A stretch of DNA of 64,000 bases from Styela clava (lineage: Eukaryota > Chordata > Ascidiacea > Stolidobranchia > Styelidae): the NCBI RefSeq assembly GCF_964204865.1, contig NC_135262.1:8184001-8248000 (forward strand), written 5' to 3'. The notes under the pieces were generated by a model, which saw only the letters and a program-made list of their open reading frames with translations, was not told where the DNA came from and did no database searches. Position numbers and translations under genes: made by a program. Of this stretch, positions 3,010 to 42,365 are shown one piece after another; the first letter of the stretch is position 1; each line of letters begins with the position of its first letter.

Positions 3010-3300
3010 ATTACTTATCGATCTTAAGATCGGTAAGTATGTTGATAGGTATTTGTCTGTCTGTCTGTTAGATGCAGGCGATATCTCACGAAAGCGAGAT
3101 TGAATCTGCTCCAGATTTTGCATTTTCATTCATCATATGTCGGGTCAGAAGCGTGTTGATTTTGGATGAATTATGTCGTATAATTAGCGAGGTAATAATT
3201 AATTAGTGATGGGACACAAGGTGTCACTATGGAGTAAGAGCGCTTTTTGGGGGATCCCTAACTTCAGATCGATAAGTCTTCGGTCTCTGACCGATATTCT
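3010..3300 (+). repeat. dispersed repeat inside oxygenase intron 3 (copy 1)
   Basis: Starts with TTACTTATCGATCTTAAGAT, a partly palindromic end, and includes a short CTGT run. It matches 12,987-13,160 over about 150 bp, including the phrase GCGATATCTCACGAAAGC. There is no counterpart in the right arm, so it arrived after the duplication. Class unknown; a MITE or SINE-like element is possible. Confidence 0.55.
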
Positions 3301-14179: not shown

Positions 14180-17100
14180 ATGGGGAATACTAATACTCAA
14201 ACAGAAATGTTCAATGATGACTCAGAAGTTACAGGCACAGAGTACTTTCATGACTTCAATCCTGACCCGAACGGTTTGTTGATTTTTGTAAACATTTTAT
14301 ATATTAGCTATGGCACCATCAATTTATTTATTTTCATAACTTTCTGTACACTTTGTATAAATAATCATACAACTATCTAGCAGCAATCTGGTTGAATCAT
14401 GAGCACTTCGTTGATAAAACTGTAAAAATCCGACGGGGCGAATATGATAAGAATCAGGATCCAACTATAATTTTATTAGCATGCAAAAATTACTGCAGTG
14501 AGTGTATGGTATTGATAAAAAAACTGTCACATTTCACTAAAAAGACAGGTTTAAACAAAAGCGGGTCACAGGAGAATAGGATGTAGCATATTCAATGTCA
14601 ATGATTGTTCGGTCTTCCAAAAGTGTGATAAGAGTATAGTATAAATGAAACAAGCATATCCTTGAAAGGCTAAATAAAAAATATAATTTGCAACAAATCT
14701 GTTTTTTCAATATGAATATATCCTTAATAAATGATTGTGGTTCATGAATTGGCCAGTGAAGGTATTTTCTTATTAAGTGAAGATCAACGCATGTAGCTGA
14801 ACATTTATTCTGATATTTAATTTAAAAATATTATATTCAAAAATAATAGTTTTTATTAAGGAACACGCTCATTTCGTACTGTAACTTCTGACTGTCTTTG
14901 CTTTCTTATTAAGCGAAATAGACAAGTATCTGACTCCAAAAACAGAATATATAATAGGTTACGTGTTCAAATTGAGATATCTGTTAATTTTATATAACAG
15001 TAAGGATCTGACCAATTTGCCTGTAAAGATTTTTGTTTCCACGGATAATATATCACAATAAATTTACTTACAATAAAACACACTCACAATCGTGAAAACC
15101 AAGTCGGTGATGAATTAGCATTGTTGTATCGAACGAATTGAAATAGAAAAGCCGTGTCAAGTCAATCGTGAAAACCAAGTCGGTGATGAATTAGCATTGT
15201 TGTATCGAACGAATTGAAAAGAAAAGCCCGGCAAACCACGATCAAAATGTCTATTTAAACGGTAACATCTTTTTCATCTCGCTCGCCAAAAACGGTACCT
15301 TTCTTTATTATCCAAAAATCTCGTTTCCCACGGAGCAATTTTTGCTCATATCTAGAATGTTCGGTACCCTTCTTACAATAATTACACTTGTTTATAGGTT
15401 ACCTGACATGGGAAATATCCATTTTCTCATACACGAGAAAGATCTAGACTCAATATTTCGAATGATCTAGAAAGATCTCTTCAATATTTCGGTTGTTTAT
15501 GGGTCACCCGACATGGGAAAATATCCATTTTCTCATACACGAGAAAGACTAGAAAGATCTCTTCAATATTTCGGTTGTTTATGGGTCACCCGACATGGGA
15601 AAATATCCATTTTCTCATACACGAGAAAGACTAGAAAGATCTCTTCAATATTTCGGTTGTTTATGGGTCACCCGACATGGGAAAATATCCATTTTCTCAT
15701 ACACGAGAAAGACTAGAAAGATCTCTTCAATATTTCGATTACGTCAATTATTATATAGAATTTGACTTCCATTATCCAAATTATTGGTTAATTTGTTACA
15801 CATTCCTGGCACCACAAGTGAAATATTTTAAAAACACATATTAAAAATTAACCGATAATTGTAGAAATATAAGAATGAAATCGAAATTATCATGACAGTA
15901 ATCAAATCTCGTAACTTTTGAAGATGGCAATTTGAAATGTCAAAGTAATTTGTTTGAAAACTGTCGGATGAAGAGCAAAACATCCACTACGAAGAGCAAG
16001 AAAAAATGGTCGAGTGTAATTAATCAATAAGACACAAGACTCAGAAACGACAAGACAAATTCCTTAATTTTGGATATTTAAAATGGCAATTGAAAGATTT
16101 ATATACAAGAAGAAAAACATGAAATTTTGAGCACTAATTATACATGCAAGAATTAAAAACATACAACTTAAGAACTCATTGTAGCCCCATTTATTATGAT
16201 TCTGACTTGGGGTCTTTTCAAATTATAAGGATGAGACATTTGTATTGTGAAAGGCATTTGAATTGTGCAATTCAGTGAAACAGTAATGGTATTATTATAC
16301 CTTCTTCTCACCTACACGACTTTCAAAATTGTGAGCACTTGTGAATTTTAAGATTATATCCATTTAGGCATTACTGAAATTTATAAAAAAATAATTAACA
16401 ATCTTCAATACGAATTTTTCAATATATCTATATAATGACTGTTTGTAGCCCTTTTATATTTTAGTGATTGCAATTAGAGGGATTGTGAGAAAAATTTGTT
16501 TTTCCAGCCGGACTGTATTTTGAACAACAAATAGGCAAAAAATGGAGACAATAAGGTGGTGGGGAAGTGGCCACTGCAATAAAATGGGCAAGAAATAAAA
16601 CATTAAAAATTAGGCGAATATATGTATAAGACACTGAAAATTGCGAGAAAACTACGGCAAAAATATATAAGACACTGAAAATCGGACGAACAAAAAAGGC
16701 GGGAATGAAACAATAAAATGGTGGGAAATTAGTACTGCAATATTTTCTTGATTACGTATGACACGGTAAACCAACGAGAAAATAAATCGAAAAACTGGCG
16801 AAAAATAGACGTTGAATTGACGAAAAATTGCCACTCCATTTGGTGGAAATTGGGCACTTCAATATTTTCTTGGTGTTTAGATCAAATCATAAGCCTAGTT
16901 GGCTGCTCGACTGAGCTTCTTTCTCTGTTACGTGTCAATGTTTGCGCGTTACCAGCTTGACTTTTTCATCTGAAAAAGATCCTTTAGACCCCATTTGGTC
17001 ATCCTCCTGGGTGCCTCTGGGCGCATTGTTACAATTTTTGACCTAGTTGGTCTGTATTTACCCATGTCGGGTTGAAATAGCGCATTGTTGCAATTTTGCG

Positions 17101-20100
17101 ACCTAGTTGGTCTATATTTGCCCCATGTCGAGCTGAAATAGCGCATTGATGCAATTTTGCAACCTAGTTGGTCTATATTTGCCCCATGTCGGGTTGAAGT
17201 AGCGCATTTTTTTGTTTGTTTTGTTATGCCAGCTTCGGGCTTTTTCGGAGAATATAACGTATTTCGTCTAATTTTTGTTAAGTCGAGCGTGGAGCTCATT
17301 CAATCACTGAATTTACTTTCAAGGGCATTTTAGTAATAACGAAATCTATCCAATCAAAAAGGGGTTTGTTAATTCCCGCCAAGCTTTCAGTTATTATAAA
17401 TCTCTCGAAAGTCATTTAAAGTTTAAACATTCAAATTCTTCTACCATTAATTCATCAAAATTGAAAATTGAAAAAACTTTGCCAATGCACTTTATTAATT
17501 ATTTCGTATTTAACTGAATTAGTTTCAGAAATATCCAAATCTTGAAGTCCGAATTGTGGGTCGTTTTCGTCAACAAATCGACCTTTTGACATTTGTGGGG
17601 TAATATGTGGTAATTTATAATGATTCACCCCTAATTTAACTTACGTAATATCTATCCAATATAGACCAAACCCCACTAAGCAATACCAGTTACAAAATTA
17701 CCATAACAAAATTAAACCACCAAAACAATAACAGGTACATAATTACAATAAGTATGACAGTAAGACAAAATTAAAAAACGTACAAAACAATACTAAGTAA
17801 TAAGATATAAAGACTTGCTTACGGTTGTTAAGTATAATCCATAATAGGCTTGCACGTAATTTACGGATTTACGGAATTACGTAATTATTTGGAGTTACGG
17901 AAGGGAAGTTACGAATTACGTAAAGTCGTAATTATTGCATTGAAACGAGCTTTCTTCAAAGCAGTCAATTTCGTCGATTGCGAAAAATGAAAGCTCAACG
18001 AGTAGAAGAAGTTAGAGTTCCGGTATTCGCAGCCGTTTTTCTCTCTCTTGTTACGTAGGTGAAGGAAGGCATGCCGCGTTGCCATTTACTAACCTATTAT
18101 CAACTTATCTGGCGTGGCCAATGTAAATTATTAGTTAGTTAATGGGGGAAGAACTGAGTAGGGTCGTTTGACGTCAACACACCTGGTTTTAACTTCTCCC
18201 GCAACTAAACCATAGATAAGGGATAGAATTGTGTTAAGACCGATAGACGCTAACACGCCCGGTTTCAACTTCTTCGGGTGAAATGACTAATGAACGCAGG
18301 AGATCAATCTATCAAACATGGCCTATCAAACATTTGTATCCATTTTACTTTTATTTATTATTTACTTGTTCCAGTTTTCCGTTACTTATGGTATATATGT
18401 TCCGTTTCTATTTTATATTCACGCGTTTGAATAGTGGGAATTCCCCGCCAAGTGTGGATTAGCAATGCTTAACCATTCTTTATTGTTAATATCAACACTT
18501 GATATATGAACATGGAATATCATATTGTTTTTGGCTGTTTCATTTCAGACTTGGGGTATAAACAGGAAAATATCCATAACCTTTCAACACGACGATCTTG
18601 TGAAATTTAACGAAGAGCTTTCGCGACGAATTGGAACCAAATAAGCAAAAAGAGCGATTGATCACTCGCGCCAATACCTCGCCGTGATAATTAATGTGCG
18701 CTTATCAAATAGCAATTTGACGACAAAAGAGAGATTGCGTAATGAACCAAAACGACGGATTCCTCGCGGACCGTTGAAAATTTAACTGCTATCATATATA
18801 ATCAAATATGAGCCTGTGTGTTTATTCTGTGCGAGATCCATTTTCTATTACAAAATCTTGATGTTCTGTTAACGGTTTTATCTTATATATCAGTCCGGAC
18901 TTGGCCTTGCTCATGATGTTTTTCACAATTCCTCTCAATATTTCGGCCATATATGATTAACTGTCTTACCAAATGCGGCAGCTTATTTTGATTTATCGTC
19001 GACTTGAATACCACCGGCACTCGACCAAACTTTTGTCAATGTTGGCCGATAGGATCGTCGACTTGAGTTAGCAAATAAATGTTGTGAGTGTAAAATAAAT
19101 GTCACAAAATGCATTGTTTTGCGATAAAACTTTGTTTTTTCGGAGAAGGCATGTCATATAAGTTCGGTATTTAAATTATACGCAAATAAATAATATTTGA
19201 TCTAAATTTATCGCAAATAATGTTATAAACATTCAGTCCGCGAAATGATTGAATGTAAAATGAAGCATGGTAATCGGAATATCGTCAATAAGTCGACATC
19301 AATAATTATTATTATAAAAATGGCATTAATGTCGGATAATGCAGAAAACGCTGCAAAAACAAGTCTTCGTCGCGAGGAAATCGCAAGTATAATCAAATGA
19401 GAGAATACGCTCGTCGTTGGTTAATAAATTAGAAACCCGTAATTTTCTAAGGTGGTTTTAAAAAACTATCGTTTCCATAAATATCCGTATACCAGTGTCG
19501 GTAATGATAAAATAAAATTGATCGCATAAAAATGGGACGGTTAATTTGCGAAGGTGATAAAGAAAAACCAAAGCTAACACAAAAGATAAAAATCAGAATA
19601 AAATTAATTTGAATTCACTCCTTGATAGTTGTCTTTAACATCTGCCGCCGGCGTGTAGTACTGCCAAGAATAGAAAAACCCAACTTCAATGTCCCATACG
19701 GAAAAAAAGTGGATTCAATGGGTTGTTACGATAGGTTTAAATGCGTAGAAAAATATCGCAATTACGGGGTCATTACGTAATTGATTTTGCCGTAATTACG
19801 GAATTGATTTTTGTCAATTACGTGCAAGCCTAATCCATAATAATCTCGATATTCGGCGTCATCAGTGAGACGACTTCTGGTGATGAATAATTTCAAGTTA
19901 TTATTCATAACAGTAGCGTAGCGATCATCAGAATTATTGATATTTGACGATAAGGATGACGATCGCTTGAAATGTTTGAGATCGCATTTAAAGGGATACA
20001 CAATTTTCTCGATTATTCGAGACCGTTCTTACACTGATTATTCATGTAAAACACGGTCATTCAATCGTGAAAACCAAGTCGGTGATGAATTAGCATTGTT

Positions 20101-23100
20101 GTATCGAACGAATTGAAAAGAAAAGCCCGGCAAACCACGATCAAAATGTCTATTTAAACGGTAACATCTTTTTCATCTCGCTCGCCAAAAACGGTACCTT
20201 TCTTTATTATCCAAAAATCTCGTTTCCCACGGAGCAATTTTTGCTCATATCTAGAATGTTCGGTACCCTTCTTACAATAATTACACTTGTTTATAGGTTA
20301 CCTGACATGGGAAATATCCATTTTCTCATACACGAGAAAGATCTAGACTCAATATTTCGAATGATCTAGAAAGATCTCTTCAATATTTCGGTTGTTTATG
20401 GGTCACCCGACATGGGAAAATATCCATTTTCTCATACACGAGAAAGACTAGAAAGATCTCTTCAATATTTCGGTTGTTTATGGGTCACCCGACATGGGAA
20501 AATATCCATTTTCTCATACACGAGAAAGACTAGAAAGATCTCTTCAATATTTCGATTACGTCAATTATTATATAGAATTTGACTTCCATTATCCAAATTA
20601 TTGGTTAATTTGTTACAGTACATCATTATTGAGTTTTTATGACATTGTTTTGCCATTCTTAGGCGAGGTTGTTCAGATTTTGAAACAAGATGAGGACAAC
20701 AAGTTAGTGCTGGATCAAAATGCTTTGGTTGGAATGCTGCGGCACCCAAGCATTGGGAATAGACCTGTTTCCATCATTACAATTGCAGGCCCATTCAGAA
20801 CAGGAAAGTCATTCATGATGAATTTTTTTCTGAGATATCTTCGAAACAAAGGGGTGTGTTTGATTTATGCTGTTGTTTTTGTATGTTACAAATATCTAAT
20901 TTCATTTCACGATGAGTGTAAATTCTAGTCCGGTCTCGACGTAACGTTATTGCGGATGTCGTCACGCTTTGTTGCATTTCCGTAATATACGTAAAGTTGT
21001 GCGTGACGAGACGTAGCCTCGCTTCAATGAGAACGTCATTTTGACGCAGCGTCGCTGTTAAATCTACAGAAAATCAAACATATTTGGCCATGAAATTTGA
21101 ATGGCTCGTCGTGAAATCGTTTTGGATACGTCTTCAAAAAGCTATTCAAATTCTCTAGATATATTGTCGATTGTATATTAGGTTATTCAGGCAGGAAATA
21201 GTCAATTTTTGATATTTAATTTTTGTTTTTATCAAATAATTTTACACACTCATTTTTTGCCAATTACCCTCAGATAATTGGAAAATATAGCAGCAATATT
21301 TAAAGTGTAGATGGTTCTAATGACCAGCTTTCATACAGTATAAGACTTACTTAAATATCTAATGTGGTTCTTGAGATATGAGGGAATAAAGTTGATTGAT
21401 TTTCACGCGATAAACTGGCCGGTAAACCGGCCAGCAGGGTTCAAGAGGTTAACGATTATAGCCGTCATTGTTATGCAAGCACCCGCAAATCGGGTCTTAC
21501 GATCAGAATATGCATTGTTATGCAAGCGCGATGATTCTACCGTGTTTCCTCGAAAATAAGACCAAGCCTGAATTTTAAAAAGGATTTTAATATAAGCGCT
21601 CGCCTTTAAAAAAGACTTAGTCAACAACGCAACTTTTTTTTTCGACTCAATCCCGTGCCGTCGTTTCAATTTTGCTAAGGCGTCGGAAAATTTCGTGATT
21701 CGTGAACCTTTCAAACAACCCATATCTTATACTTTTACTGAAAAAGAGAAAAATAAAATCGGTCTTATCTGTAATGGAGCTATAATAACAAAGTTTAATT
21801 ATGAAAATTCGGTTTTCTGTGGATAAAGAATATTTTTCCTTGATTTAAAAAGCGTTGCGCACTCCCATCTGCTTTGCGATTTCGTATTTATATGGGGCAG
21901 ATTCCACTGACTGTCGTTAAGATTCGTTTGTTCGTTTATATGAAACTCATTGCAAAAAAGTTTTTTTTTAAAAGGTATCAATACTATTTTCACGGGGAGT
22001 CGCAACTTGTGCCTATTTTTCAAGGGCGTCAAAATACAATGAAGTTCGGGAACCACTGAGTCCCAGTCTAATCTATATGTAGCCGTTATTTTGAAAAAAC
22101 GTGCTATTTATAAGTAAATGGAAATCGATATTCATATTTTGTATAATAAAATATCTCGTTATTCTTTATCCCAAAAATAAGCCCTAGTGTTATTTTCGAA
22201 AGAAAAATGAAGACAGTGTCTTATTTTTGGGGAAACACGGTATTATGATGATTTATTCACTCGGAATCGTGAAATTTTTGTGTAACACTATTTTTATTAA
22301 TTGTATTTCGAATCAAAAGTCTGCTGAAAAAGTACAATAGATATGGTACTTTGTGTAAAATTGGTGTTCTCTTTGCGGCCCCTAAAATTCGTTTCGCGGC
22401 CCCTAGTTTGGGAAGCCCTGATCTATAGCATTTCAATTTTGATGAAGTCATACACAAAACTCAAAAACGAATACCATGGAACAATCCCCAGTCATTGAAA
22501 ATTCCAATGAAATTGTTCCAGTAGTCGAAAAATAGGTGATTTTTTCCCAGCAACAAGAATAGAAAGAAGGAGAATAACAACAGCAACAAAATATTAACAA
22601 AACGATTTATCTCTCACTACGGTGAATTGTTGTCGCGTGTTTATCATGACGTATTTTCGTTTCAATCACCTAGTTTGCAATGACATATTCTACCTAACTT
22701 CCAGAATCCGATTTCAAAACAACAAAAATTTATCAAGAATAATAATTTCTCGAAAACGACTATATTATAATCACGCTTAAAAATCGGATGATTTACACAT
22801 GGAGCTTATGAACTAAGTTGATATATTGGCTCAATCTGGAATTGTAATTCAACTTTCAAAATTCTCGATTCAAGTTCAAAATATCACATGTCTGGGAACT
22901 TTTTATTTTGTAGTATACAAATGCCGACTGGATGGGATCTAAAGATACTCCTCTCAATGATGGTTTTCATTGGCGCGGCGGTGTCGAAAAAGTTACCACT
23001 GGAATTTCGGTTTGGAGTCAACCTATTATTGTGAGGAGAGAAGGCGGACGGGAGGTAATCTTATATTTAGTTTAAAAATATTTATTTTCAAGGTCTTTTT

Positions 23101-26100: not shown

Positions 26101-29100
26101 AAAAACTGTAGATCAATTAAGCTTGTGTGTAACATCTTATTATTATTGTATTATTAAGCTCTTCATCAATTATACGAAGCGTTGCACGAAAAGCGCAGGA
26201 AAGCTATCACAGGCAAGTAAATGAGGCAGATGAGTGATACTTACAATAACAAATCACTATCTTTTATTTTACCTATTTTTTTTTTTACGTTATCTAATTG
26301 TTACAGAAATTATTCTTTCTTGTGAGAGACTGGGTAGCACCTTTTAGTTTCGAGTACGGTGATGCCGAAGCGAAAAAGTATCTGGCAACCGTGCTAGAAG
26401 GAGATGAACTCGATAAAACCTTCAAAGCAATATCATGTTATCTGATGCCGGCACCAGGAAAAACAACTCAGGTTTTTCATGACCGACAGTTTGATGGAAA
26501 GCTAGGAGGTTGGTAACAATCTGTTGTTTCGTGAATTAAAGAACTTCTATTTGTATTATATTAGTTGTATCATCAACTTCTGTTCATACTTAATCTCAAC
26601 AATAAGGATGTATTTTAGATCAAGCTATCAAATTTGCTTGACTTGAAATGGGTATCGGTCAAACTGTATCTATTGTCAGATTTGTTGAAACCGATCAACC
26701 GACTGAATGTTCTATTCATAAATATGGACGGAGCCAAATGGCACCATTTTTATAGTGCTATCTTTAGGACATCTTGTCACTGCTAATTGAATCAGAAAAC
26801 GAATTTGAATTTTATGTTTAAAACAGTCACATTGGAGATTGAGGAGTTTATGTATGACTTTTGTAACGCTCTTGCAACTTTCGATAAAAAAGAAGAGAGA
26901 TTTCAATCCAATATTGCCTAGTTAGGTACTTAGGTATCCTCAGTCCGCAAAGTATTTTTCGGCTTGTTACATCTCAGGTTGCTATACGCCTATACATTGT
27001 TTTTGCTCGGCCTAAAATAAACTGGAATTTAGGATTCATAAATGGTCATTCAAGGCGACAGCATAGCTAATTTCATTTGATGTTCATTTTAGATTTGGAC
27101 ATTGAGTTCCGTGATCATCTTTCTCCATTGGCTGCTTGTTTGTTGGATCCTCAAAACCTTGTAGCGAAAGTTCAGTCCGGTGAAATGTTAATCAATATCA
27201 TTGTCAAATCTTGGGAAAATATCAAAAAGTTTGAAACCCCAAATGGAATTGACGAAGTAAATTTTATTCATTTTATGTGTAGTTGTTCACTAGCATTAAC
27301 TTATTCATAAACACAGAATCACTGTTGAAAAAGTTACAGGCAGTCATTTGAGCTTGAACACCTTGAAGTGTCAAGTTAATATCAATCAGATAAAGGCGAT
27401 TTGAGTAAGAGCAAATATTTGCTCTAGCAAATAAAATACAGTCTTGTGAAAATTAACACCTAATCAACTTTTTTTTTATCTTGCAATCAGAACATAATAT
27501 GAGGTCGATAGTAATCTTCTGTCATAGAATTATGTTATTCACATTGGTTTTTCTGTGAGGTTCAGTTATTGAACCTACATTGTTTTTGGTATTCATCAAT
27601 GGCTTTTAGATTTTATTTACTTACTTATTAACCCCAATTTGGTCAGTAAATAATTTAATATATTTGTAGTCGTATTATTATTGCATTTTTCACTTATAGA
27701 TAAGAATATATAATACATTGATATCAATTTACGCATTTATGTCCAATAGTTATACCAGGATCATCATTGCTTGGAGGAAATTTTCAAAACTATGAAGTCA
27801 TACCAACAAGACGAAGCAAAAATTTTGGTAAATAAAATATTGTGATGAAGTTTTTGTTGTGAATAATAACAATTGTATTGTCACGGGTTAAATACTCACC
27901 TAGTTGTGCTATCATTTTAATGGTGCCAGACTAATTCGGGGATATCCAAAAATCGTCATTCTGTTTTATTTTTCCAGTAAGTAATGTAATTTATGAGTAT
28001 AAGTCACTACGAGTTCAAGATGCTTTAAATATTTGTTCGTCCCGTTTATTAGATTTATGTTGGATAATCATATGAATATAGTATAATGTTGGATTTATAT
28101 ATCGTCATGCTAATAACCGAATTGCGTAAGTCATTTTTGCGATTTTGAGTTTTTTTTTAAAAATAGGTATTTTTGTAATGCTGCGCACCTGTCTGTTAAC
28201 TCAGATTTTATTTTAGGAATTCCAAAACCCATAAAAATGAAGATTTAATGCACATCTGTGCAATTGTTTCGTCATAATGAATTATCATTGTTAGCGCTGG
28301 ACTATTGTGACGTCACAATGATAAAATAACCTCGGCGATGCATTTTCGAGTTTTGCATCTCGGATTCTAGCTTAGCGCGTATTAATTTGAATTTATACTA
28401 CAGTATAGGAAGGCGCGCACTTGTGATATTCACTGTCCGAGTCCAATTCACCTTGGTTGGCTTTTATATTGGATGCATTGCTTTTTTATTCTTTTTATTT
28501 AATCTTAATCTCATTTCGGTGGGTGTGCAGAACGTGTTATATTAATGAAATATATATTTTTGAACATAAATAATAATGTAATTGAAACTGATTAGCTATT
28601 TTGGGGATTGGACATTGTAGATACTGAGAATTACATTCGTTTTTGGAATGTTTAGTTTTCAGGACTGGTGCATATAGTAAAGTTGCAAAATTGGGTATGT
28701 CCCCAAGTCATAGACACATTTTTGCCTATGTCACAGTGCGCCATTATGACGTCACTTAACTGCGTCATACAAATTAACTTAAATCCGGCTACAATCAAAA
28801 AATTGAACCATGGCAAATTATTGACTCTCAATGGCATAACAATATCATTAGGAAGTTTTTTACGTTTTTTTCAAAACTGCTAAAAATGACTTACGCAATT
28901 CGGTTATTAGCGTGACGATATATATATATATAGAAGGTCCATACATTGTAAACAAAAGAATTTAGCAGTTATTGATCAGAGGCCAGTGTCTGAAACGGAA
29001 ACTTCTAACGTTGTTGCTTCACAGTAATTGTTCAAATCGAGAATTGAAAGGGATGACAAAATATTGAACGTGCTTATTTGAAACAATTATTTGATAGTAG

Positions 29101-32100
29101 ACTTTTTTCAGAAATTAAGACATATTCAAATATCTAATATTTGAGTTGTGGGACATGTTTGACTCTCGAAAAAAAATTTCTATAATTAAATATATAGAAA
29201 ATTATACTTTCAAACAATCCTCATCATTAACAACTCTGATTACTCGAAATAATCAACTGATATAGGAAATCAGTGATCAACACACCTTTAGTTTGTTGAG
29301 TGGTGAAATATGTGATATATAAAACTGCAACAGGGTGACAAATCTGTAAATGCGAAAACGACAGAAAAGCAATTGTCAAAAGCAAGAAACCGGGCTTTAC
29401 TTCAATTCGAAAAAAACTGTGCAGATTGCAGCAACAAGAACATAGTTAATAAGGCAAAGAACATTCTTCATGAACAACTCAAAGGCGCGAGGACACAATA
29501 CCTGCTTCAAAAAGAACTTATAGAAGTATGTGGAGCGTCACACTTTTCTGGAAACTGAAAATGACAATGTTTTAAAAATGTTTTATATCATTGTAGCTTG
29601 ACAAGAAGAAGAAAACGCAGTCAACATTTCAGAATATCAAGGAAGAATATTTATTCAGAATGGAAAACGTAAATATTAGATTACTAACAAGCGTAAATTC
29701 AAGATATTTGTCTCTAATAGTTCATATACAAGTTGGATGTTCTATAAAGCTTAGGTAAATGTGTACGCAGTGGAATTTGTTGGTAACCCCGATGGCCTTG
29801 TTATTAATACTCTCCCCACGACATCAACAGTATTCCGACCAATTGTAATTTAAAATAGGCCAAGTGTTGTTGGTCTTCATCGGAATTATTTTTTTTTTAT
29901 ATTTATTTCACAATACAAAACAATTTTAATAAGAGACGTTTCTGTACTCGTCTATTAGTTGTTCAAGCTTATTTGAACCAATTTCCTATATATACCATTA
30001 TCAGCTACCAGTATAAATATTGAGACTATGAACTGATAGTACAGAGTGAGCACAAAAAATTTAACCAATTAATTTTTTAATAACATCTACAAAAATAAAG
30101 AAAATTCATTAAACATTGTTTTGGTTTCAACTTTCGTTTGTGCCGGACTTTACTTGTAAGTTAAGGAAATCTAGAACGCTTTGCACAAAAGTTATCCGTT
30201 GCGTAAAATCAATACACGATCGCGTACTCCTCTATGCGAAATTTTTGCTGCTGCAATTGCAGTTTTAAGTTCACCGGTGGTCTGAGGAATGTTATGATAC
30301 ACATTGTCCGTCGAATACTCAACCAGGTTAATCATCTTTTTTGAAATCGCTCTCTATCAGTCAACCTAGGACGTGAGGTGTTACGTGGGGCGTCGCCCCA
30401 TCTTTTGGAACCGCTACTAATCAACTCGATGAATTTCCCTACGTCGTCCGAATGATGTCCAACGCTTTCTCTGCACCGTCACATAATGTTCCATATTCAC
30501 CGCGTGATTTTCGTTTTTGAAAAAACACGGACCAGTTATGCAATGGTTACCCATGCTGTGCAATTCATCGGGTATAGCAGTCTCTGTAAAACCTTTTTTG
30601 GAGGTGTTGTACCCAGCAGGTGAATATATTTTCACTATTGTCATGCCCATATACAACAGAAAGTGTGATTCATCAGAAACCTGAGTGGGTGATTGACAAA
30701 TTTGCCCAACGGTTACAAGTCTGTTTATGTTGATAAGGGGACAATTGGATCATATTCTAGGGAGAACATAACTTTTGTGCAAAACGTCCTAGATTCACGA
30801 AACTTAGATGTGTAAAATCAAACAATTTACTCCATTTCCACGTGGGTAACCAAGAAATTTATTGGTTTTGTTATTAGAACCACCCGTAAATAATAAAAAT
30901 TTATTTTATTTTTCTCCAAAGCAAAAAGCACTCCTCGGACGGGACGATGGATCTGCGCATCACGACGTTAAAAAAGAAATGGAAGAAAATTTTTTGCCAA
31001 CCCCTGACAACGAAGATTTTAAGTCAATCAAGGCCGATTTGGACTTTCTTTTCAAACGAATGGACTATGATTGTTCCTTTAAACAGGTGGCTTCAATTAC
31101 CGCGATAGTTAACCAAATTGTACTTTAACTTTGTGTACTCATGAGTTTGCTTGAAATTATAAAATGTAAGTATAGTAATATGAAAATAGAAAGCTCTAAT
31201 TATGTGTAATTGCCTTCAATAATTTGAAGTTGCTTGTGCATATAAAACCTTTCAAAATTCTACTAATTACAGATATACCAATTGCGATATTTGAAATTGT
31301 TGATATCACCAATATTCCAATATGATGTAGTTACCAACATATGTATATACAATTTTTTGAGTAGCCGGGCGGATGGGATAAAATATTTGTTCGCGAACAT
31401 TGTTTACAGTGGTCTAACGGTATATTAAAATACTTGACCAAGCGCAGCTTGCATTTTGAGCTTTTACGAACGCGAAGATGCTCATCACTTCCAGCGGATC
31501 TCTTTACCAAATCCCCATGTCTCTTTATTGCGTGGTTGTACTAGATTCAAAAATGAAAGTCTATATCTAAAAGCCGATATCTGAACTTGCTAAACTGTTG
31601 CAGATTCAACATACTATTGAAGTGAATAATGCAGTAATAAAGGCCGCAAAGCATTATGAAGAAATATTTAAGGAGGTATTCATGATTTTATTTATATTAT
31701 GAGTTTATAGCAAATGCATATCTGTTTTGAATCACTAATCACTACTTATTGATATACGCAGAAAGTAGGCGGCTATCACAACGAAAACGAATTGAAAATT
31801 TTCCATGAGCAGTCAATCGAAGAATCTGATAAAATATTGTACGCAGAACTGCCAGAAGCAACTATTGATCAATCACAAAGACAACGGGACAAACTCATAC
31901 AAATGATAAAAACATATATCATTTACTACAATACTATGAATCAAAAAGTAAGTCGACGCCATGAAAAATGACCAACTCGTGATAAAATTCAGTTATCAGT
32001 AGGTCTACATGTTGCGCTGTTAATAATTTCATACGCTTGAGCTATGAATGCTTTTGTCGACATTTACAGCTGCTTAGAATGCAAAGTTATCTAATGAGAA

Positions 32101-35100
32101 GACGTTTTCAGATTTACCTTAATAAATGAATTGCTTCTGTATTTGGGGTATTTTCATTTTTTGTGATTTGTATCCTGAAAATCCAGAAAATGGATAGTTT
32201 AAGTGGAGGTTTGTTTACAATTATTTGACTACAAAATTACTACATTGACTGTTTCGTTTTATTAGAAAACAGATGACACGGAATTGTACAAGATATGGCA
32301 GTCATTCAACCAATTCATGAAAATGGTAATGTTTTAGAAACATGATTTTGAAGAATACATAACATTGTACAGTATTCAACTGATATATTGTTACAGGCTA
32401 CCCGCGAAAAGGTGGTTGAAGATTCTTACATAATAGAAAAAACTCACGAATTCAACGAATCAGTAAAAACTATGAGTGAGGCTTTCGAATTTTCACGATA
32501 TGGCGAATTCATGACAAAAAAATGGAATTGCAATGTTGACGAAATACGCAATATAACAATGATGAGAAATATGTATTTAAAGGTGAGATATTTTGCGTTG
32601 ATATTCTATATTCTATTCTATTTATAATTTCAAAAACTAATTCCATGATTTATGAAAAGTAAAAATACCAGTACAAACATTCATTCATGTGTATCTGACG
32701 TTTGATGTTCACCACTCATAACGAAAGGTTGTGTGGGACCAGCGAATGAATGGTATTCATTCAGTCTACATGCAAAACTGGTTGACCATATTTTAGAATT
32801 TACATTGATTAGCTTATTAGATATTTCATTAGAATACGGAGAAAGATGTCGTGTCGCCTCGTCGTAGTTTCAGAAACGAATAGAAAATTACATCACACGC
32901 GCAATTTACGTTTCATCTTTATGCCGGTAGCATGTTTTACCAGGGCTCTCAAGACAAAGTTTATGTTGAAATCAGCGAAGCAGCAAGCAAGGCCGAAGCA
33001 CTCAAGAAAATAAAAGTGTGAAAAAAAGTCCAAGGAAGGTTAAAAGAAGTCCATAAGCATAAGTGTAGGTAAACCAAGCCCTAGTCAAGCAAAATATTAG
33101 TAGTACCAGGAAGCAGTCAAACAAAGTTAAGCCGGCAACATGAAAATGGAGTGAAGAGAAATAGCGAAAAGAAAAAAATGGAAACCAGCGAGTTTGGGGC
33201 AGCAAGCAAAGCAATCAGGCCCCCGCCCCAGCAGCAGTCGAAAATAGGATTAGATAAAGACAATGGTTTTTTGCTGCTCTGAAGGGTCCTACGAGATGTT
33301 TCTGCGTTTGAAAGGCTTGGATGAATTGTGTCAGTGCAGAAAATGTATGCTATTGTCATTGCTCTTATCAATTTAGTATTGACAAATTGATGATTATGTT
33401 GAAAAAGGGCATAAGACTTTAGGACCGTGCCACTTACAGAGACGGCTCAACTACTGCACTATGAAGTTTGAAATATCTTCTAACCTAGGCTATATGTTTA
33501 TTATATTTATAGAAAGCTATTACATTGTTCTAAAGCTAACATTTAATATGGAATCGGAAATTATTACACTAGCGGGGACTATCACATTTTTCAGCGAAGA
33601 TTTAAATTCTATTAAAAAAGAAGAACTCAAATTTAAGTCTAATTTCGTTTTGGACATTAGGATAAACGATTTTGGTATAACTGCTAAAGTAAGAGCTTCC
33701 ATGAAAGATAAAACATTTTGAGACACTATGTAAGGAGATGGTGCCGGAGGGATTGAAAGTGCAAACTGCGAATGCCCACGAAGAAATTGAGTTTGCAGCC
33801 ATATGGCTGCAGTTGCAATTAAGGATGCTAAGTATGACTACTTACAAGTATTCGATTCTTATCCGATTCCAAAATTTTCGATTCCGATTCTCGATTTCGA
33901 ATCTCGATTCCTCGACATAGCTTACCGAAAAAACATACCCACTTAAACAATACCATATGAAATCGAACAAGAGAGCGATGTTCAAATGTATGGACATTAA
34001 GACCAAAACTAAAATCGCACACATAAAAAGTATCCTTTAGTTTAGAGCCCACAGAAAATTTAAAAAAACATAAAATAAACGTAATAGCCTTCTAGAAAAA
34101 GTTTTCTAACCACTGAAAATTTCAAAGCGATAGTTCCAGTAGGTGAGCAGTTATTTTTTCATAACAATAACAAGAAAATGAATTCTAACCACAACAACAA
34201 AATAACAAAACGATCTGTATATCCACTTTAAGTCCAAAAAAATCACTGTCGTATTAAATAGAAAAAAAAAGCTATTGTAATCTAAAGTTCAATTCGTTCA
34301 CATGCCTTCCTGTAAGTCTCGATTGCAGTTTGAAAACAGTAAGCTCCGCTGAGCTAAATGCTTGGGGCTATAGATGTCATTGTACAGAACAGACTGCGCC
34401 GGCATTTCAATTTTTTAACATATCTTGAAAAAGTGACCAAACTTAGTCTTTGCAGCTAATTTTATCCCGGAATCTTTAAAAAAAAATTATTAGCTGATTT
34501 CTTACTCATTGAGATTCGAAAAAGGGAGTAAGGGTTTTCGAAACATCGTAGCAAATATTTATGAAATTCTTAACGTAGAATATTTTTAAATATGCCCAAT
34601 ACTATAGCTAACCAAATAATTGTCCATATTTTCGAAGGAAGTAGCCGAAGCTGAACTATCAACTTATGGACATACACTTCTAGAAACATTGCATGCTGAA
34701 TTGCAGGTGTGTAATATATTTTGTTTATCTATGATATCTTCCTACTTTTTTATCAGATTATTGGGCACAAAATGTATTCATTGGTCGCTTTGCAATATTA
34801 GTGTTGTTGTTTTTAAGAAAGTCTAGCAAATTCAATTCGAAAATGCCGTCAAAGCAAGGGGACGCTAGAACAGGGTGGTCCAAACCCAGGCCCGCCGCTT
34901 CATTATCTGTGGCCCGCGTCACATTCGGAGAGTAATCAAAAAATCCCATTTCGTGTTGTTTCGTGATAAAATTATTCAGAAAAATCTTTTGACATATTGT
35001 TACATCACTAATGTCACTGAATTGACTAGTGCCATAGCTAGCTGAGGCAACTAGCGAAGCTTAAATGATGTGCTTGGCAGTCTAAATTATTATCTGGCTT

Positions 35101-36644
35101 TCTATCTTTTTGGTCGGGAATATAGGCATCGTAGAAAACTAAAAATCGAATATGGATTTTATTAGCCTTGGATGGCTATGTCTGATAACTATGTGTTTGC
35201 ACAATAAAAGTGTTTGTTTTGTGTTGCACTGTTTATCTATTCTTGGCACTATTGTGGCCCGCGAACAATGCAAAAACAAATTTGTGGCCCGCGGAGCCCA
35301 CAACCTTGGACCACCCTGCGCTAGAGACTTATTACTTATATATATTTTTTTCAAATTTTGCACTTATTGCGCCAACTGGGTGTTGTGACTTGTGACGTGC
35401 AGTTTTCTGGTGCCATCATGTTGCATTTGTAATACAGACTTGAGTTTCTCGAAGGGTTTTTAAATTCCAATTAATATGAAACTAAAATTTCGCAATTTAA
35501 CATTCATATATGACCGCATCATACATTTTACTTAACCGCGAGACGTCTATAATGACGTAACATAAAATGAAAATGGGATGACCAAAGTAATCCATCCGCA
35601 GATATGAGAATTTTTGAATCCTAACCATTTCAGGAGTATGAAGGAACCTATTTTTACAATCTGGGAGAAATTCTGCTTGAAGAGAAGTTTTTCATTCAAA
35701 GACAATATGACGAAAAACTGAACGAACTTTTTTTGGACGGTTGGAATAAAGGGCCACGCAATGAATACTTTAGTAAAATTGAAATAGAAATAGATTTTGC
35801 TCGCAAAATCAACAATAAAAATCAGGTCAGATGAAATTTTATATAAACCTATAAGAGTATTAATATCTAGAAGTATGCTGTTATTTTTTTTATGTTTTTA
35901 TGGCGGCTATACATTATCTGCTGTTGGAAAATGCTTTAGTTTATAAATATATTACAAATATTAGTAATTTACAACAATTAATCCAAGTTATTTTCTAGGG
36001 ACTAGTTGAGTTGTATTTTGAAGAAGATGCTATTCGGGCACAATTAGCTTACTGCAGAGCAATGGAAGAGGTTCATTTCAAGCTATTTTGTTTTGTATAG
36101 GAGTAACCTATTTGCTTATTCATTATAGTTTATTACATTATTATAGAAAATGACTGGTGCCTATATCAAACCAGATGTTTTGGAAGAATACCACAATGAA
36201 CTTGTGTCTGAAGCATGCAAAAAATGGGAAGAAGAGGCCAAAAAAACAGATGTCGAAACTCGATTGAGATTGGAGAAACAAATTGAACGGATGAAATTCA
36301 ACCTAGACGGGTTGTACAGAAAATTCAAGAATTGGAATGAAGCGAATAAATCTTTACTCAGAAGAGTAGTGGGTGGTATTTCCGGAGTTGTGGGTGCAGC
36401 TGGAGTAGGAGGCGGAGCTGTTGCTGGAACGGTTTTGGCAGAAGAAGTGACAAGTATCACTGCTACTGCGGCACTAGCGTCATCAGTTGGGATAGGTCTG
36501 GGAATTCTGGCCGGAGTATCTGTCGCCGGTATTGCATTTTTGGTCGGTAAAAAATATTTGGAAAATAAAGACAAAAGCTTTTTCGCCGAGGAATGTCACG
36601 ACCTCAAGAAAAATTTAGAGAACGTTCAAAGCAGTCATCAATAG
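14180..36644 (+). CDS. atlastin-like dynamin-family GTPase with expanded stalk, 18 exons
   Basis: Exons: 14180-14273, 20663-20853, 22914-23054, 25866-26021, 26307-26508, 27093-27256, 27750-27827, 29334-29525, 29597-29668, 30922-31086, 31604-31675, 31762-31947, 32266-32325, 32397-32582, 34638-34706, 35634-35825, 35999-36070, 36147-36644. Together 2,790 nt, one frame, 929 residues; every junction is GT-AG and in phase. Seen: MGNTNT start (fits the myristoylation pattern MGxxxT), P-loop GPFRTGKS at residues 74-81 with the atlastin-type Arg, switch region HWRGG...TTG (exon 3), DSQG at 149-152, VRDW at 200-203. Residues 317-764 are a helical array from alternating short and long exons; Gly/Ala-rich hydrophobic stretches near 838-861 and 869-898 form a likely membrane hairpin, then a charged tail. 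Known: atlastins tether and fuse ER membranes. Inferred: membrane-remodelling or GBP-like defence role. Exon 1 is joined by phase and context only; exon 7 could start at 27,759. Confidence 0.85.
14381..14548 (+). other. candidate cassette exon of the GTPase gene
   Basis: 168 nt between an acceptor (...ctatctag) and a donor (gacag|gttt). Its phase (1 in, 1 out) exactly fits between exons 1 and 2, adding 56 residues including IWLNHEHFVDKTVKIRRG and a Cys-x6-Cys-x2-Cys cluster (CKNYCSEC region). The frame is open to 14,584. Phase agreement at both ends would occur by chance fairly often, so this is only a candidate for an alternative N-terminal insert. Confidence 0.3.
14590..15070. other. intron 1 sequence, nothing recognised
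   Basis: AT-rich intronic stretch before the long direct repeat. No coding segment or recognisable transposon end was seen. Confidence 0.4.
15163..15800 (+). repeat. long direct repeat A (LTR-like)
   Basis: 638 bp, nearly identical to 20,063-20,617 and longer by one 82-bp tandem unit. It can be read as TG...CA (TGAAAACC at 15,169, ending TTGTTACA). Six bases after its end comes TGGCACCACAAG, which could serve as a tRNA primer-binding site. An extra partial copy of its first 85 bp precedes it (from about 15,085). No target-site duplication was found around the pair, so a retroelement is inferred, not shown. Confidence 0.6.
15391..15741 (+). repeat. 82-bp tandem repeat array, four units
   Basis: Units start at about 15,391 (diverged), 15,496, 15,578 and 15,660, each with GGGTCACCCGACATGGGAAA and TTTCTCATACACGAGAAAGA. 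The second long repeat holds three units (from about 20,290). The last units are essentially identical, so copy number is changing recently. Confidence 0.85.
17021..17205. repeat. about 60-bp tandem repeat, three units
   Basis: Units begin GCGCATTG at 17,021, 17,080 and 17,141 (59, 61 and 61 bp), each with ACCTAGTTGGTCT and CCATGTCG. The phrase CCCATGTCGGGT is the complement of the CACCCGACATGGG core of the 82-bp array, so the two arrays may share an ancestor. Confidence 0.75.
17845..19832. mobile_element. hAT-type non-autonomous element, 1.99 kb
   Basis: Termini TAGGCTTGCACGTAATT and the inverse AATTACGTGCAAGCCTA, with a perfect 8-bp target duplication ATCCATAA on both sides. Subterminal clusters of 'acgtaatt/acggaatt' lie at both ends. 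No long ORF inside. It is nested between the two long direct repeats, in intron 1 of the GTPase gene. Confidence 0.9.
20063..20617 (+). repeat. long direct repeat B (LTR-like)
   Basis: Second copy of the repeat at 15,163, with three 82-bp units. It ends 46 bp before exon 2 of the GTPase gene and is in frame with it, producing an open stretch from 20,494 that runs into the exon. That start is almost certainly an artefact of the insertion. Confidence 0.7.
21538..22242. mobile_element. TIR element with TACCGTGTTTCC ends
   Basis: TACCGTGTTTCCTCGAAAAT at the left is mirrored by ATTTTTGGGGAAACACGGTA at the right, about 700 bp. Intron 2 of the GTPase gene. This terminus type is widespread among animal MITEs. 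No target duplication was confirmed. Relic hAT-like ends (GGGAACCACTGAG at 22,050; AGTTTGGGAAGCCCTG at 22,407) lie in or near it, so several insertions overlap. Confidence 0.6.
22470..22630 (+). repeat. dispersed repeat, AACAACAGCAAC-rich (copy 1)
   Basis: Shares 'GTTCCAGTA' followed by a run of AACAA/CAACA words and AACAAAACGAT with 34,080-34,240 and 56,455-56,610. The family is undefined. Confidence 0.4.
23385..24930 (+). repeat. three minisatellite blocks of about 9-10 bp units, one inverted
   Basis: Block 1 (23,385-23,458) repeats CTACGTGTCCCACTTGTCC-like units. Blocks 2 (about 24,055-24,220) and 3 (24,725-24,930) repeat the complementary sense, for example GGACACGTGGGACAA and GTGAGACAAGTGG. 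Units are imperfect. All sit in intron 3 of the GTPase gene. The opposite senses would let the pre-mRNA pair with itself. Open stretches on the - strand here are only translations of the repeat. Confidence 0.8.
25268..25529 (+). pseudogene. decayed coding fragment in GTPase intron 3
   Basis: One frame reads IITATTEKLIEMQLYEHNKY, then YFDLEEQATYYKEAF, a TGA, then KGVGLSPTIKPTPLAVKYRD and ends before a donor-like GTTTGT at 25,530. There are two in-frame TGA codons. The composition is protein-like. I do not recognise it; a transposon ORF or a captured host exon are both possible. Confidence 0.4.
28099..28922. mobile_element. long-TIR MITE, about 820 bp
   Basis: The left end reads TATCGTCATGCTAATAACCG and continues GAATTGCGTAAGTCATTTTT; the right end is its inverse with one or two mismatches over about 45 bp. 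TA-rich flanks fit a TA-target (Tc1/mariner-like) element. No ORF. Lies in the intron before exon 8 of the GTPase gene. Confidence 0.8.
30050..30850 (-). mobile_element. mariner-like element relic with TIRs
   Basis: On the - strand the frame reads MGMTIVKIYSPAGYN and then ITGPCFFKNENHAVNMEHY, matching the GPYFFE...V...Y segment of mariner/Tc-type transposases. The inverted ends share AACGCTTTGCACAAAAGTTA-like phrases around 30,175 and 30,770. Only a transposase piece remains and stops break it. Intronic in the GTPase gene (between exons 9 and 10). Confidence 0.65.
33540..33840 (+). pseudogene. protein-like fragments, unidentified
   Basis: MESEIITLAGTITFFSEDL, then LDIRINDFGITAKVRASMKD and a stop; other frames continue protein-like (VPEGLKVQTANAHEEIEFAA; AIKDAKYDYLQVF). 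The frame changes suggest a decayed ORF of about 100 codons, followed by ATTCGATTC repeats that look like a transposon end (33,846-33,918). Function unknown. Confidence 0.3.
34080..34240 (+). repeat. dispersed repeat (copy 2 of the 22,470 family)
   Basis: Shares TAATAGCCTTCT, AACCACTGAAAAT and ATTTCAAAGCGAT-type phrases with 56,455-56,610. Intronic in the GTPase gene. Confidence 0.5.
34871..35318. mobile_element. hAT MITE, 448 bp
   Basis: Ends CAGGGTGGTCCAAACCC and the inverse ...CCTTGGACCACCCTG; 8-bp flanks CGCTAGAA and CGCTAGAG. GC-rich 'gtggcccgcg' phrases near both ends. Same family as 38,818 and 58,706. In the intron before exon 16 of the GTPase gene. Confidence 0.9.
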
Positions 36645-39836: not shown

Positions 39837-39842
39837 TTTATT
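39837..39842 (-). terminator. AATAAA overlapping the Kelch stop codon
   Basis: The stop TAA (39,840-39,838) is part of AATAAA, followed by an A-rich run (TTAAAAAAATAG). If used, the 3' UTR would be only tens of bases. Another signal further downstream could be the true one. Confidence 0.35.
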
Positions 39843-41802
39843 CCAAGTTCCCATCGGGTCTCAAATTTTGCTGTCTTGTAATTCGTGGGAACATTGTTTT
39901 TAAATCGTCAAGTGTGTCCGTTACGACTACCCTCCGTTTTAATTTTTGGATTCGGTGCTCTTCCAAATTTCCTTGTGATTCGCATAAACTACTGCTGTTA
40001 GTAATTGCATCCTTGCGACCATATATTTTACCATTGTTCTCTTGTTTTAGTTTCGTCGCCTGTGATTGGGAACAACCTGTTCCACTGAAACATGTTTTCC
40101 ATTTTTTGACAACAGAAAAACTCACGTTATCAATATGCTCAAAGGGAACTGGTAAGCTCGACCACGAGGAATCATTATGGTCTAATTTTTCAATGAGTTC
40201 CGTTTGCTGACTGCAACCAACGACATATAAGGTGCCATCAACAACGGTGAGACTGCAATGTGGTCTAGCATATGACATGTTAGGAAGCAAGGTCCAGCCA
40301 TTTACAAATTCATTGCACATTTCAACGCTATTTAATGATACTCCGTTTTCGCCTGTGCCACCGGCTACGTATATTGTACCTTGGTAATATACCGCCGATG
40401 CCTGGAATCTTCGAATTTTCAAGGGCCTTAGGCGGCTCAATGTATTTGTTGCCAAGTTCAACTTTTGCACCAAATTAGAGGTACTAGGTACTAATTTTCG
40501 AGATCTTCTGTGCTCTGTTGAGTCATCTAGAATATGTAATCCACCCATGAAAAAAAGATTGTGACCATCAGCAGTGACTGCTTGCTGCTTCCCCCAACTT
40601 TCATTTGGACCCAGGATACTCCATTTGCCTGTTTCTATATCAAAAACTTCGCCGACACTTACGATTGTTTTTGATAGTAATGGTTCAACTTCATTATTGC
40701 GTTTTCCTCCACAAGGATTTATAACACTTGCTACTGGATGAAAGGAATTACGCTGGCCGATAACAACTAGATATCCACCACAAGCTAAAAAATTCGAAAT
40801 GGTTCTTTGGTCTATTATCATGTCATTTAGGTACGTCCAAGAGTGTGAAGATTTTCTAACGTCGTATCGATACAATGATCTTTCAGAAAGTAAATAAATA
40901 CAATTATCCGTATATGTAATTTGATGAAGTTTTTTTTCGTAGCAATGTGTTGGTAGTTGAACAACCTCCTCCCATATGCGACTAAATGCGTCATAGGCGG
41001 ATATACAGTTGTCAGTCTTATTGATTATTGCTAGCCTGGCGTCTCCATTAAGATAGCTTTTCCCCATCATAGCTTGAAGCAATAAGTTCACGCAAGCAGC
41101 TGACTCTTTGGCAAGGGGCTCCTGCCAAACGGTATTGTGTAAATAATCAACAGGGAAATGTTCTATGTGTATTGCATTTAAAAGCTCGAAGAAAAAGTCC
41201 TTTCTTGTTTTTATATCCCAATTAACCCATGTCAGAACGGCTTTCCATAGCACATCTTTGCTGGATATTATGATTTCATCAGATTTCAGATATTTTATAA
41301 CATCGCGGAGTTTTAGCAATGAACCAAAGTTCTTACAATCTATTATTGACTCAAAGTTTTGTAAAATATACCGTTCCGCAGCTTCTGAGGCCAAAACACT
41401 GTCATATTTCTCGGCCATATCTTTTATAACCAAACAATTTTTCGGACTTATGTTTTCGATCAGAGACTTACATATCTTGTCTGACATGCCGCTGATTCCT
41501 AAATAAGCAGCCGCTTCCAGACAAAACCATGCAGACTCGATAGTAACGTGCACTTCTCCTGTGTAAATATATTTCATACAGCAACTTACAGCTACTGGGT
41601 TTAGACCGGTTAAGGTTATCCTACCGGCATCTTGGTTCTGTTCTAAAAACAAGTCTCGAAAATACACAGAGCATGCTGCCATTATAATACTGTGTGCTGG
41701 AAATCCCTTGCCGTCGCAAACAACGACAATATCGGACAGAAACCGTCTCTTGCGATATTCGTTGAACAGTTCAAAAGCAGTTATTGTACGGCCTATCTCC
41801 AT
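39838..41802 (-). CDS. BTB-BACK-Kelch (KLHL-type) protein, 654 aa, intronless
   Basis: Single uninterrupted frame. BTB at about residues 22-118 (SDIVVVCDGKGFPAHSIIMA; FRDLF; YIYTGEV), BACK at about 122-225 (SPKNCLVIKDMAEKY), degenerate kelch repeats at about 255-570, best seen at ASAVYYQGTIYVAGGTGENG and NGWTLLPNMSYARPHCSL, where the GG and the spaced Trp mark kelch blades. Length fits KLHL proteins (about 550-650). KLHL proteins usually dimerise by BTB, bind Cullin-3 through BTB-BACK and recruit a ubiquitylation substrate through the propeller; that role is inferred here. The last 85 residues are polar, basic and outside the family core. The frame is open upstream only to the ATG at 41,802, followed by a typical BTB start spacing. 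Lack of introns fits either the many intronless KLHL genes of invertebrates or a retrocopy. Confidence 0.93.
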   Translation of the reverse strand: MEIGRTITAFELFNEYRKRRFLSDIVVVCDGKGFPAHSIIMAACSVYFRDLFLEQNQDAGRITLTGLNPVAVSCCMKYIYTGEVHVTIESAWFCLEAAAYLGISGMSDKICKSLIENISPKNCLVIKDMAEKYDSVLASEAAERYILQNFESIIDCKNFGSLLKLRDVIKYLKSDEIIISSKDVLWKAVLTWVNWDIKTRKDFFFELLNAIHIEHFPVDYLHNTVWQEPLAKESAACVNLLLQAMMGKSYLNGDARLAIINKTDNCISAYDAFSRIWEEVVQLPTHCYEKKLHQITYTDNCIYLLSERSLYRYDVRKSSHSWTYLNDMIIDQRTISNFLACGGYLVVIGQRNSFHPVASVINPCGGKRNNEVEPLLSKTIVSVGEVFDIETGKWSILGPNESWGKQQAVTADGHNLFFMGGLHILDDSTEHRRSRKLVPSTSNLVQKLNLATNTLSRLRPLKIRRFQASAVYYQGTIYVAGGTGENGVSLNSVEMCNEFVNGWTLLPNMSYARPHCSLTVVDGTLYVVGCSQQTELIEKLDHNDSSWSSLPVPFEHIDNVSFSVVKKWKTCFSGTGCSQSQATKLKQENNGKIYGRKDAITNSSSLCESQGNLEEHRIQKLKRRVVVTDTLDDLKTMFPRITRQQNLRPDGNLE

Positions 41803-42365
41803 TTCGGTATCACAGACGCAATTGCAACCAGATTACACCGCGCATTTGGCCAAACGCTAGTGCTACACTTCCAACCAACAACGATAATAAATTCTAGATA
41901 GACTTCGTCGTCTGAGTCACTTCACAGTGGTGTCGATAGACTATTGCCTACCTCGCACACCGTTCATTCACGCTTTGTTGATCTCGAATATAGTATTCGT
42001 CAGCATATGGCAAACCAACATTGAATAGAGCCAACTTCTTTATTTAGCGGTACATTTCTAACATTTAAAGACCATTACCTGATACTCGTACTGACACTCT
42101 CTCGTTTCCGTGTTATAGCCTGCGTGTGTAATGTCTTTCTTAGTGTAGGGTAGGCAATAAAGAATAATACATCGTAAAAATACTGATATTTCTGAGGGGT
42201 AAATGGAATTTCTATTATTCAAAACTTCCAGTAAATCTCACTCTACAGTACATAACACAAATACAAACATCAGTCGTCACGGTCTAAAATCCATACGCTA
42301 ATTTCACTGTGTGCAGAGTTTACACCAACGATTACCATGCCACATATATATCATTTGGTTCCATT
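41803..42365. promoter_or_regulatory. presumed Kelch upstream region
   Basis: Non-coding stretch 5' of the Kelch gene. No TATA box or other decisive motif was identified; the promoter is placed here only by position. Confidence 0.3.

Follow-up and report, generated by a model that had tools for sequence, protein, structure and literature searches.

A Styela clava atlastin-like gene with a long stalk that appears to have grown at least partly by repetition of a two-exon bundle unit

Atlastins carry a single three-helix bundle of about 100 residues. Here, we analysed a 64-kb window of the stolidobranch tunicate Styela clava (the whole stretch of 64,000 nucleotides, contig NC_135262.1, positions 8,184,001 to 8,248,000, numbered from 1 below) and describe an atlastin-like gene whose stalk spans 521 residues, an arm much longer than that of an ordinary atlastin, as an earlier note on this DNA had claimed. 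The relevant passages of PMC12312388 describe one bundle in atlastin and head-to-head pairing across membranes, which are brought together by rearrangement of the bundle. Long stalks are already known in the Sey1/RHD3 group: in the excerpts of the cited papers, Plasmodium berghei SEY1 has a stalk ~400 residues longer than those of the ATLs (PMC4980331), an excess of about the same size as here, the RHD3 stalk is likewise much longer (PMC3866526), and yeast Sey1p needs its stalk length for fusion (PMC4980331, citing Yan et al. 2015). No publication on repeated atlastin bundles or on this gene was found among the papers listed from the open-access literature searched, and tandem bundles in an animal atlastin appear, within that literature, to be new to us. 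The best explanation, to which we assign a probability of roughly 0.6, is that a single atlastin-derived gene encodes a GB1/RHD3-type GTPase whose 521-residue stalk consists of three-helix bundles stacked on one another and leads into a hydrophobic hairpin rich in Gly and Ala, with a short tail at the end.

The nineteen exons of the spliced model join into one open frame, 947 residues long, that has a lone stop at its end. Exons F to Q occupy positions 27750-36644, and the upstream exons 1 to E also lie within the window. Two public Styela clava proteins, which we take from their names to be automatic NCBI models, cover exons 1-J (P0001, 'atlastin-like isoform X1', 528 aa) and N-Q (P0078, LOC120333118, 364 aa). 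Exon F begins at 27750 in the reading of P0001 (LYQDHH) and the final stop codon ends at 36644, in agreement with the earlier coordinates 27750..36644. The product had been given as 929 residues because the 18-codon exon C2 (26159-26212), which is present in P0001, was overlooked. The donor of C2 is GC (GCAAGT at 26212-26213), so that a GC-AG intron follows it. Each short exon after the GTPase exons was paired with the following long exon as one module; in the list, bits refer to the atlastin bundle profile and coding scores to the intron controls reaching the score of the exon.

14180..14273, + strand: exon 1, start codon, MGNTNTQ to PDPN and the first base of a split Gly codon; 100% match to the P0001 start; GT donor
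20663..20853, + strand: exon A, GTPase P-loop GPFRTGKS; in P0001
22914..23054, + strand: exon B, GTPase switch 1 region TTGISVW; in P0001
25866..26021, + strand: exon C, GTPase DSQG (G3); in P0001
26159..26212, + strand: exon C2, 18 codons, GC donor; in P0001
26307..26508, + strand: exon D, GTPase VRDW (G4); in P0001
27093..27256, + strand: exon E, end of the GTPase domain and linker; in P0001
27750..27827, + strand: exon F, module 1 short, 26 codons, helix 1; start as in P0001; predicted helix 329-361
29334..29525, + strand: exon G, module 1 long, 64 codons, helices 2-3; module 1 at 17.2 bits; predicted helices 367-388 and 395-453
29597..29668, + strand: exon H, module 2 short, 24 codons; in P0001; within the predicted continuous helix 395-453
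30922..31086, + strand: exon I, module 2 long, 55 codons; in P0001; predicted helices 458-471 and 479-527; no profile match (2.0 bits)
31604..31675, + strand: exon J, module 3 short, 24 codons; P0001 departs from the frame here
31762..31947, + strand: exon K, module 3 long, 62 codons; module 3 at 17.6 bits (0/1000 hydrophobic-pattern shuffles), hhalign 92.8%; coding score 0/300
32266..32325, + strand: exon L, module 4 short, 20 codons; splice sites, phase, coding score 3/300; absent from P0001 and P0078
32397..32582, + strand: exon M, module 4 long, 62 codons; supported by splice sites, phase and a coding score of 3/300; no profile match (2.6 bits)
33178-33264 plus one base, and ~33513-33688, + strand: alternative 5' coding exons of P0078, within the M-N intron, located by tblastn; status uncertain
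34638..34706, + strand: exon N, module 5 short, 23 codons; in P0078
35634..35825, + strand: exon O, module 5 long, 64 codons; in P0078; coding score 0/300; no profile match (-1.1 bits)
35999..36070, + strand: exon P, module 6 short, 24 codons, helix 1; in P0078; helix 173-201 of the P0078 model
36147..36644, + strand: exon Q, terminal, module 6 helices 2-3, Gly/Ala-rich hydrophobic hairpin-like stretch (protein 856-916), 31-residue tail and stop; in P0078

Every join from exon E through Q is in phase 0 with GT-AG sites, as the earlier note had reported for the repeated pairs. Its six alternations of 20-26 and 55-64 codons hold for all six short exons and for five of the six long ones; exon Q, which is terminal, has 166 codons with the stop included, and its first 69 codons were assigned to the stalk by our own count. 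P0001 shows 98% identity to the spliced model over 54% of the query: residues 1-503 are letter-identical, residue 504 differs (I/L) and the frame is lost at 524. Removal of one base from exon J reproduces, except for the I/L difference, the ending of P0001, YLRRK followed by a stop located in exon K. A one-base difference between the window and P0001 in exon J (31604-31675) thus truncates the public protein. P0078 is identical to the model across exons N-Q and has other upstream coding exons. Exons K, L and M were found in frame in neither protein, and only the first bases of K, out of frame, are contained in P0001.

The coding character of exons F-P was evaluated with a codon model whose training was limited to exons 1-E, using as controls 300 stop-free intron pieces taken from the same introns that supplied the background of the model. 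The scores of the held-out long exons G, I, K, M and O were reached by 5, 0, 0, 3 and 0 controls, so that chance open frames were ruled out as the origin of the exon layout. Support for the short exons F, H, J, L, N and P was weaker (30, 10, 57, 3, 28 and 11 controls), most of them being too short for good coding judgement. For exon Q, 150,000 tries yielded no stop-free intron piece of use as a control. We also considered a phase-0 exon of 51 codons in the M-N interval, in the form of the second P0078 5' exon, but excluded it from the model, as 21 of the 300 controls reach its score. All exons of the model would be spliced into one transcript; of the repeated exons, whose skipping in transcripts the earlier note had named as a refuting result, P0001 retains F-J.

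The relationship among the modules was assessed using a bundle profile. The search for relatives was restricted to the 8000 candidates with the most words in common; 36 of the 77 related proteins had the atlastin-bundle start motif, and 34 were used to build the profile. Because the coiled-coil protein P0077 beat all 300 plain shuffles on summed score, plain shuffles were considered too lenient, and shuffles preserving the hydrophobic pattern as well as reversed modules were adopted. Modules 1 to 6, taken singly, scored 17.2, 2.0, 17.6, 2.6, -1.1 and 20.8 bits. The scores of modules 1, 3 and 6 were reached by none of 500 plain and none of 1000 pattern-keeping shuffles (top pattern-keeping scores 14.1, 11.8 and 16.0 bits), and the same modules reversed gave 2.7, 1.9 and 1.5 bits. 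Modules 2, 4 and 5 had no profile match, with 264, 686 and 824 of 1000 pattern-keeping shuffles reaching their scores, and were still missed by an extended profile that included modules 1, 3 and 6. Profile-profile alignment, which the earlier note had proposed as a check, gave the same division: hhalign probabilities were 92.8% for module 3, 94.6% for module 6 and 9.0% for module 1 (E 0.0037), and below 1% for modules 2, 4 and 5, as for all six reversed controls. Pairwise alignment of the modules was mostly uninformative.

Moreover, the boundary between short and long exon falls after profile column 26, 24 and 24 in modules 1, 3 and 6, as read from the alignments, and such a common intron position is what copying of a two-exon unit predicts. 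The tandem duplication of a two-exon module suggested earlier therefore stands for modules 1, 3 and 6, on the strength of a profile match that lines up with the exon boundary and, in 1 and 6, of the predicted topology, but does not extend by sequence to modules 2, 4 and 5; sequence homology of all six modules is not supported. Pro and Gly residues lie mostly in the same loop zones across modules, module 4 having a single Gly, in the second zone. Modules 4 and 5 may also be copies, as suggested by exon layout and phase and, for module 5, by the positions of the helix breakers. Overall, the atlastin arm appears to have become about five times longer, with repetition of the two-exon unit accounting for at least part of the increase.

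The predicted topology supported a three-helix bundle in modules 1 and 6. The helices predicted for module 2 carry on the pattern of module 1, and this module aligns along the GBP1 and Sey1p stalks. Consecutive bundles in the models are linked by continuous helices, and the stalk as modelled resembles those of Sey1p and the GBPs, not a series of loosely strung domains. The predicted models for modules 1-2 and 6 ruled out a single unrelated continuous coiled coil there. The structure prediction called for in the earlier note covered modules 1-2, the short exon of module 3 and modules 5-6; it recovered bundles in modules 1 and 6 and helices of the same pattern in module 2, whereas module 5 was predicted with low confidence. 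Modules 2, 4 and 5 would share the bundle fold. If straight, the arm would measure on the order of 20-25 nm (six bundles of ~4 nm, by arithmetic from helix length).

Directly after module 6, residues 856-916 form a hydrophobic stretch of 61 residues with 44% Gly+Ala, which contains two hydrophobic windows (856-874, 1.64; 896-914, 2.26). The membrane hairpin announced earlier is present as this hydrophobic, hairpin-like stretch, and its membrane insertion is putative. The C-terminal tail of 31 residues shows weak amphipathicity (best 18-residue moment 0.39, mean hydrophobicity -0.15), and the protein ends in VQSSHQ, with no CaaX prenylation signal. In Clavelina P0026, the Gly-rich tail aligned with the junction and hairpin found here (score 60, 0/500 shuffles), a weak and composition-biased match. 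By eye, a Gly/Ala-rich hydrophobic stretch like this hairpin also follows the bundle in P0003, P0004 and P0005 of Rhipicephalus and in P0007; that of P0005 scored 54 against it (0/500 shuffles).

In the Pfam scan, residues 11-272 of a 912-residue piece matched PF02263 (156 bits), which alone was above the cut-off; neither the GBP C-terminal domain PF02841 nor an RHD3/Sey1-type family was listed at E up to 1. The best solved relatives by sequence were ATL1 and other atlastins (182-196 bits), followed by LOC432253, an RNF112-type chain (115), and GBP5 (29). The atlastin-type GTPase domain named in the earlier note was thus confirmed: PF02263 is closest to atlastins, and the P-loop, switch, G3 and RD motifs are all there. 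Furthermore, the GTP-binding residues are invariant over 18 aligned relatives, and the GTPase is therefore likely to be active. The GTPase tree (33 rows) leaves the placement of the gene unsettled, with its long end branch (1.77, one of three flagged long) inside an unresolved 14-row set.

Compared with metazoan atlastins (ATL1-3 and Drosophila atlastin), the gene shares the GTPase (36% identity over 286 residues to 6b9g), the linker, a three-helix bundle at the usual place (module 1), a C-terminal hydrophobic hairpin-like stretch and a short tail. It differs in its Gly/Ala content at the hairpin and in having, where atlastins have a single bundle between GTPase and hairpin, a stalk with three recognisable bundles, found as three separate matches. 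Sey1p, RHD3 and Plasmodium SEY1 combine a GTPase, a long helical stalk and a membrane hairpin, a plan that this protein appears to share, and the Candida Sey1p stalk aligned along modules 1-2. Unlike in Sey1/RHD3, the GTPase here is of the PF02263 type with ATL1 as best PDB match and no RHD3-family Pfam listed, and the long stalk apparently arose within an animal atlastin-type gene by exon-pair duplication. GBP1 and GBP5 have the GTPase superfamily in common with it, and the GBP1 chain 8cqb, to residue 483, aligns with the GTPase and modules 1-2; in place of PF02841 and a CaaX end, a hydrophobic hairpin-like stretch is present. For RNF112, whose solved chains are truncated, the alignment reaches through module 1 only. 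Silkworm BmAtlastin-n (770 aa) is likened by description: the excerpt of PMC4926086 places it on the atlastin branch with a coiled-coil middle domain and reports it to be without transmembrane segments.

The sea squirt protein P0026 of Clavelina lepadiformis has a PF02263 GTPase and a ~312-residue stalk and ends in a Gly-rich hydrophobic stretch, although its bundle match is weaker than here (best 16.5 bits); its stalk and tail suggest that the architecture is not confined to Styela. P0013 and P0014 (886 aa) have a PF02263 GTPase (scanned in P0013), ~560-residue stalks and several weak bundle-like matches, the best in P0013, at 7.1 bits, being weaker than here. They are possibly an independent long-stalk lineage, a case that is not secure because the coiled-coil P0077 also beats plain shuffles on summed score. 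By eye, Macrostomum P0002 apparently has three tandem GTPase domains and the tick P0003 two, which appears to be another way of multiplying parts in the atlastin-related family.

The public proteins read as two separate products, and the M-N interval of ~2 kb contains the P0078 5' coding exons. The locus could accordingly hold two genes or yield two products, one a short soluble atlastin-like GTPase of about two and a half modules that stops in exon J, the other a small membrane protein encoded by exons N-Q together with upstream exons of its own. We consider this quite unlikely: exon J of the window is in frame with K, L, M and N, the one-base difference explains the ending of P0001 (bar one I/L), K, L and M score as coding, module 3 is one of the three bundle matches yet spans J and K, and in Clavelina P0026 a GTPase, a long stalk and a Gly-rich tail are parts of a single chain. 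A mosaic stalk, with atlastin-type bundles 1, 3 and 6 interspersed with unrelated helical spacers 2, 4 and 5, would account for profile matches in exactly the former modules and none in the latter. This is somewhat doubtful, as modules 2, 4 and 5 have the exon length range and phase of the other modules and mostly keep Pro and Gly at the shared loop zones, and the helices predicted for module 2 follow the common plan.

Function is likewise open to another interpretation, which the earlier note had named beside long-range tethering. Instead of tethering organelles, the protein could serve in defence as GBPs do, coating or disrupting membranes that carry pathogens. This is a serious rival, if a rather improbable one, because the silkworm coiled-coil paralogue BmAtlastin-n is described as antiviral (excerpt of PMC4926086) and the GTPase head evolves fast, as its long end branch indicates. 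In addition, GBP1 aligns along modules 1-2, and a passage of PMC9005921 poses the replacement of GBP roles by atlastins in invertebrates as an open question. The missing match to the GBP C-terminal domain, the end without CaaX and the hydrophobic hairpin in place speak against it.

We favour a long-reach, hairpin-anchored tether, since a stacked-bundle stalk would let the heads meet at a far greater distance; fusion is possible but not required. The stalk would have grown out of a lone atlastin bundle via duplication of the two-exon phase-0 module. The hairpin would anchor the protein in a membrane, possibly that of the ER. Its GTPase heads would pair in a GTP-dependent manner, either across facing membranes or with other targets, and so link membranes at a distance given by the long arm, which hydrolysis would move. 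A more tentative proposal, which we put forward as speculation, is a modular, length-tunable tunicate tether in which phase-0 two-exon bundle cassettes, six here, set membrane spacing by copy number, so that an animal lineage would have reinvented a Sey1/RHD3-like long stalk by exon-pair duplication. Judging from stalk length, Clavelina might have three or four modules, which is a guess.

Several other features were observed. Intron 1 contains repeats of 300 and 252 bases whose copies are 100% identical and lie ~4.8-4.9 kb apart (15162-15800 and 20061-20617), accompanied by an 82-base tandem repeat; either the duplication is very recent or it is an artefact of the assembly. At 39841-41832, the - strand carries one open frame (664 codons) whose product has BTB, BACK and Kelch domains; it represents a kelch-like gene that is apparently intronless. 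Near opposite ends of the window lie open frames that look similar by eye and have opposite orientation (2374-3611, +; 61328-62104, -), the latter with a weak match to 2OG-Fe(II) oxygenase.

For gene annotation, the locus illustrates that a one-base difference can conceal about two thirds of the stalk of a protein in public gene models. If true, the gene would provide a natural test system, an animal atlastin whose modular stalk is ~five-fold longer and in which removal or addition of an exon pair shifts the arm by one unit with the frame kept. The finding would also bear on whether atlastins assumed roles like those of GBPs in animals described as lacking them, Ciona being among the genomes listed without them in the excerpt of PMC4926086.
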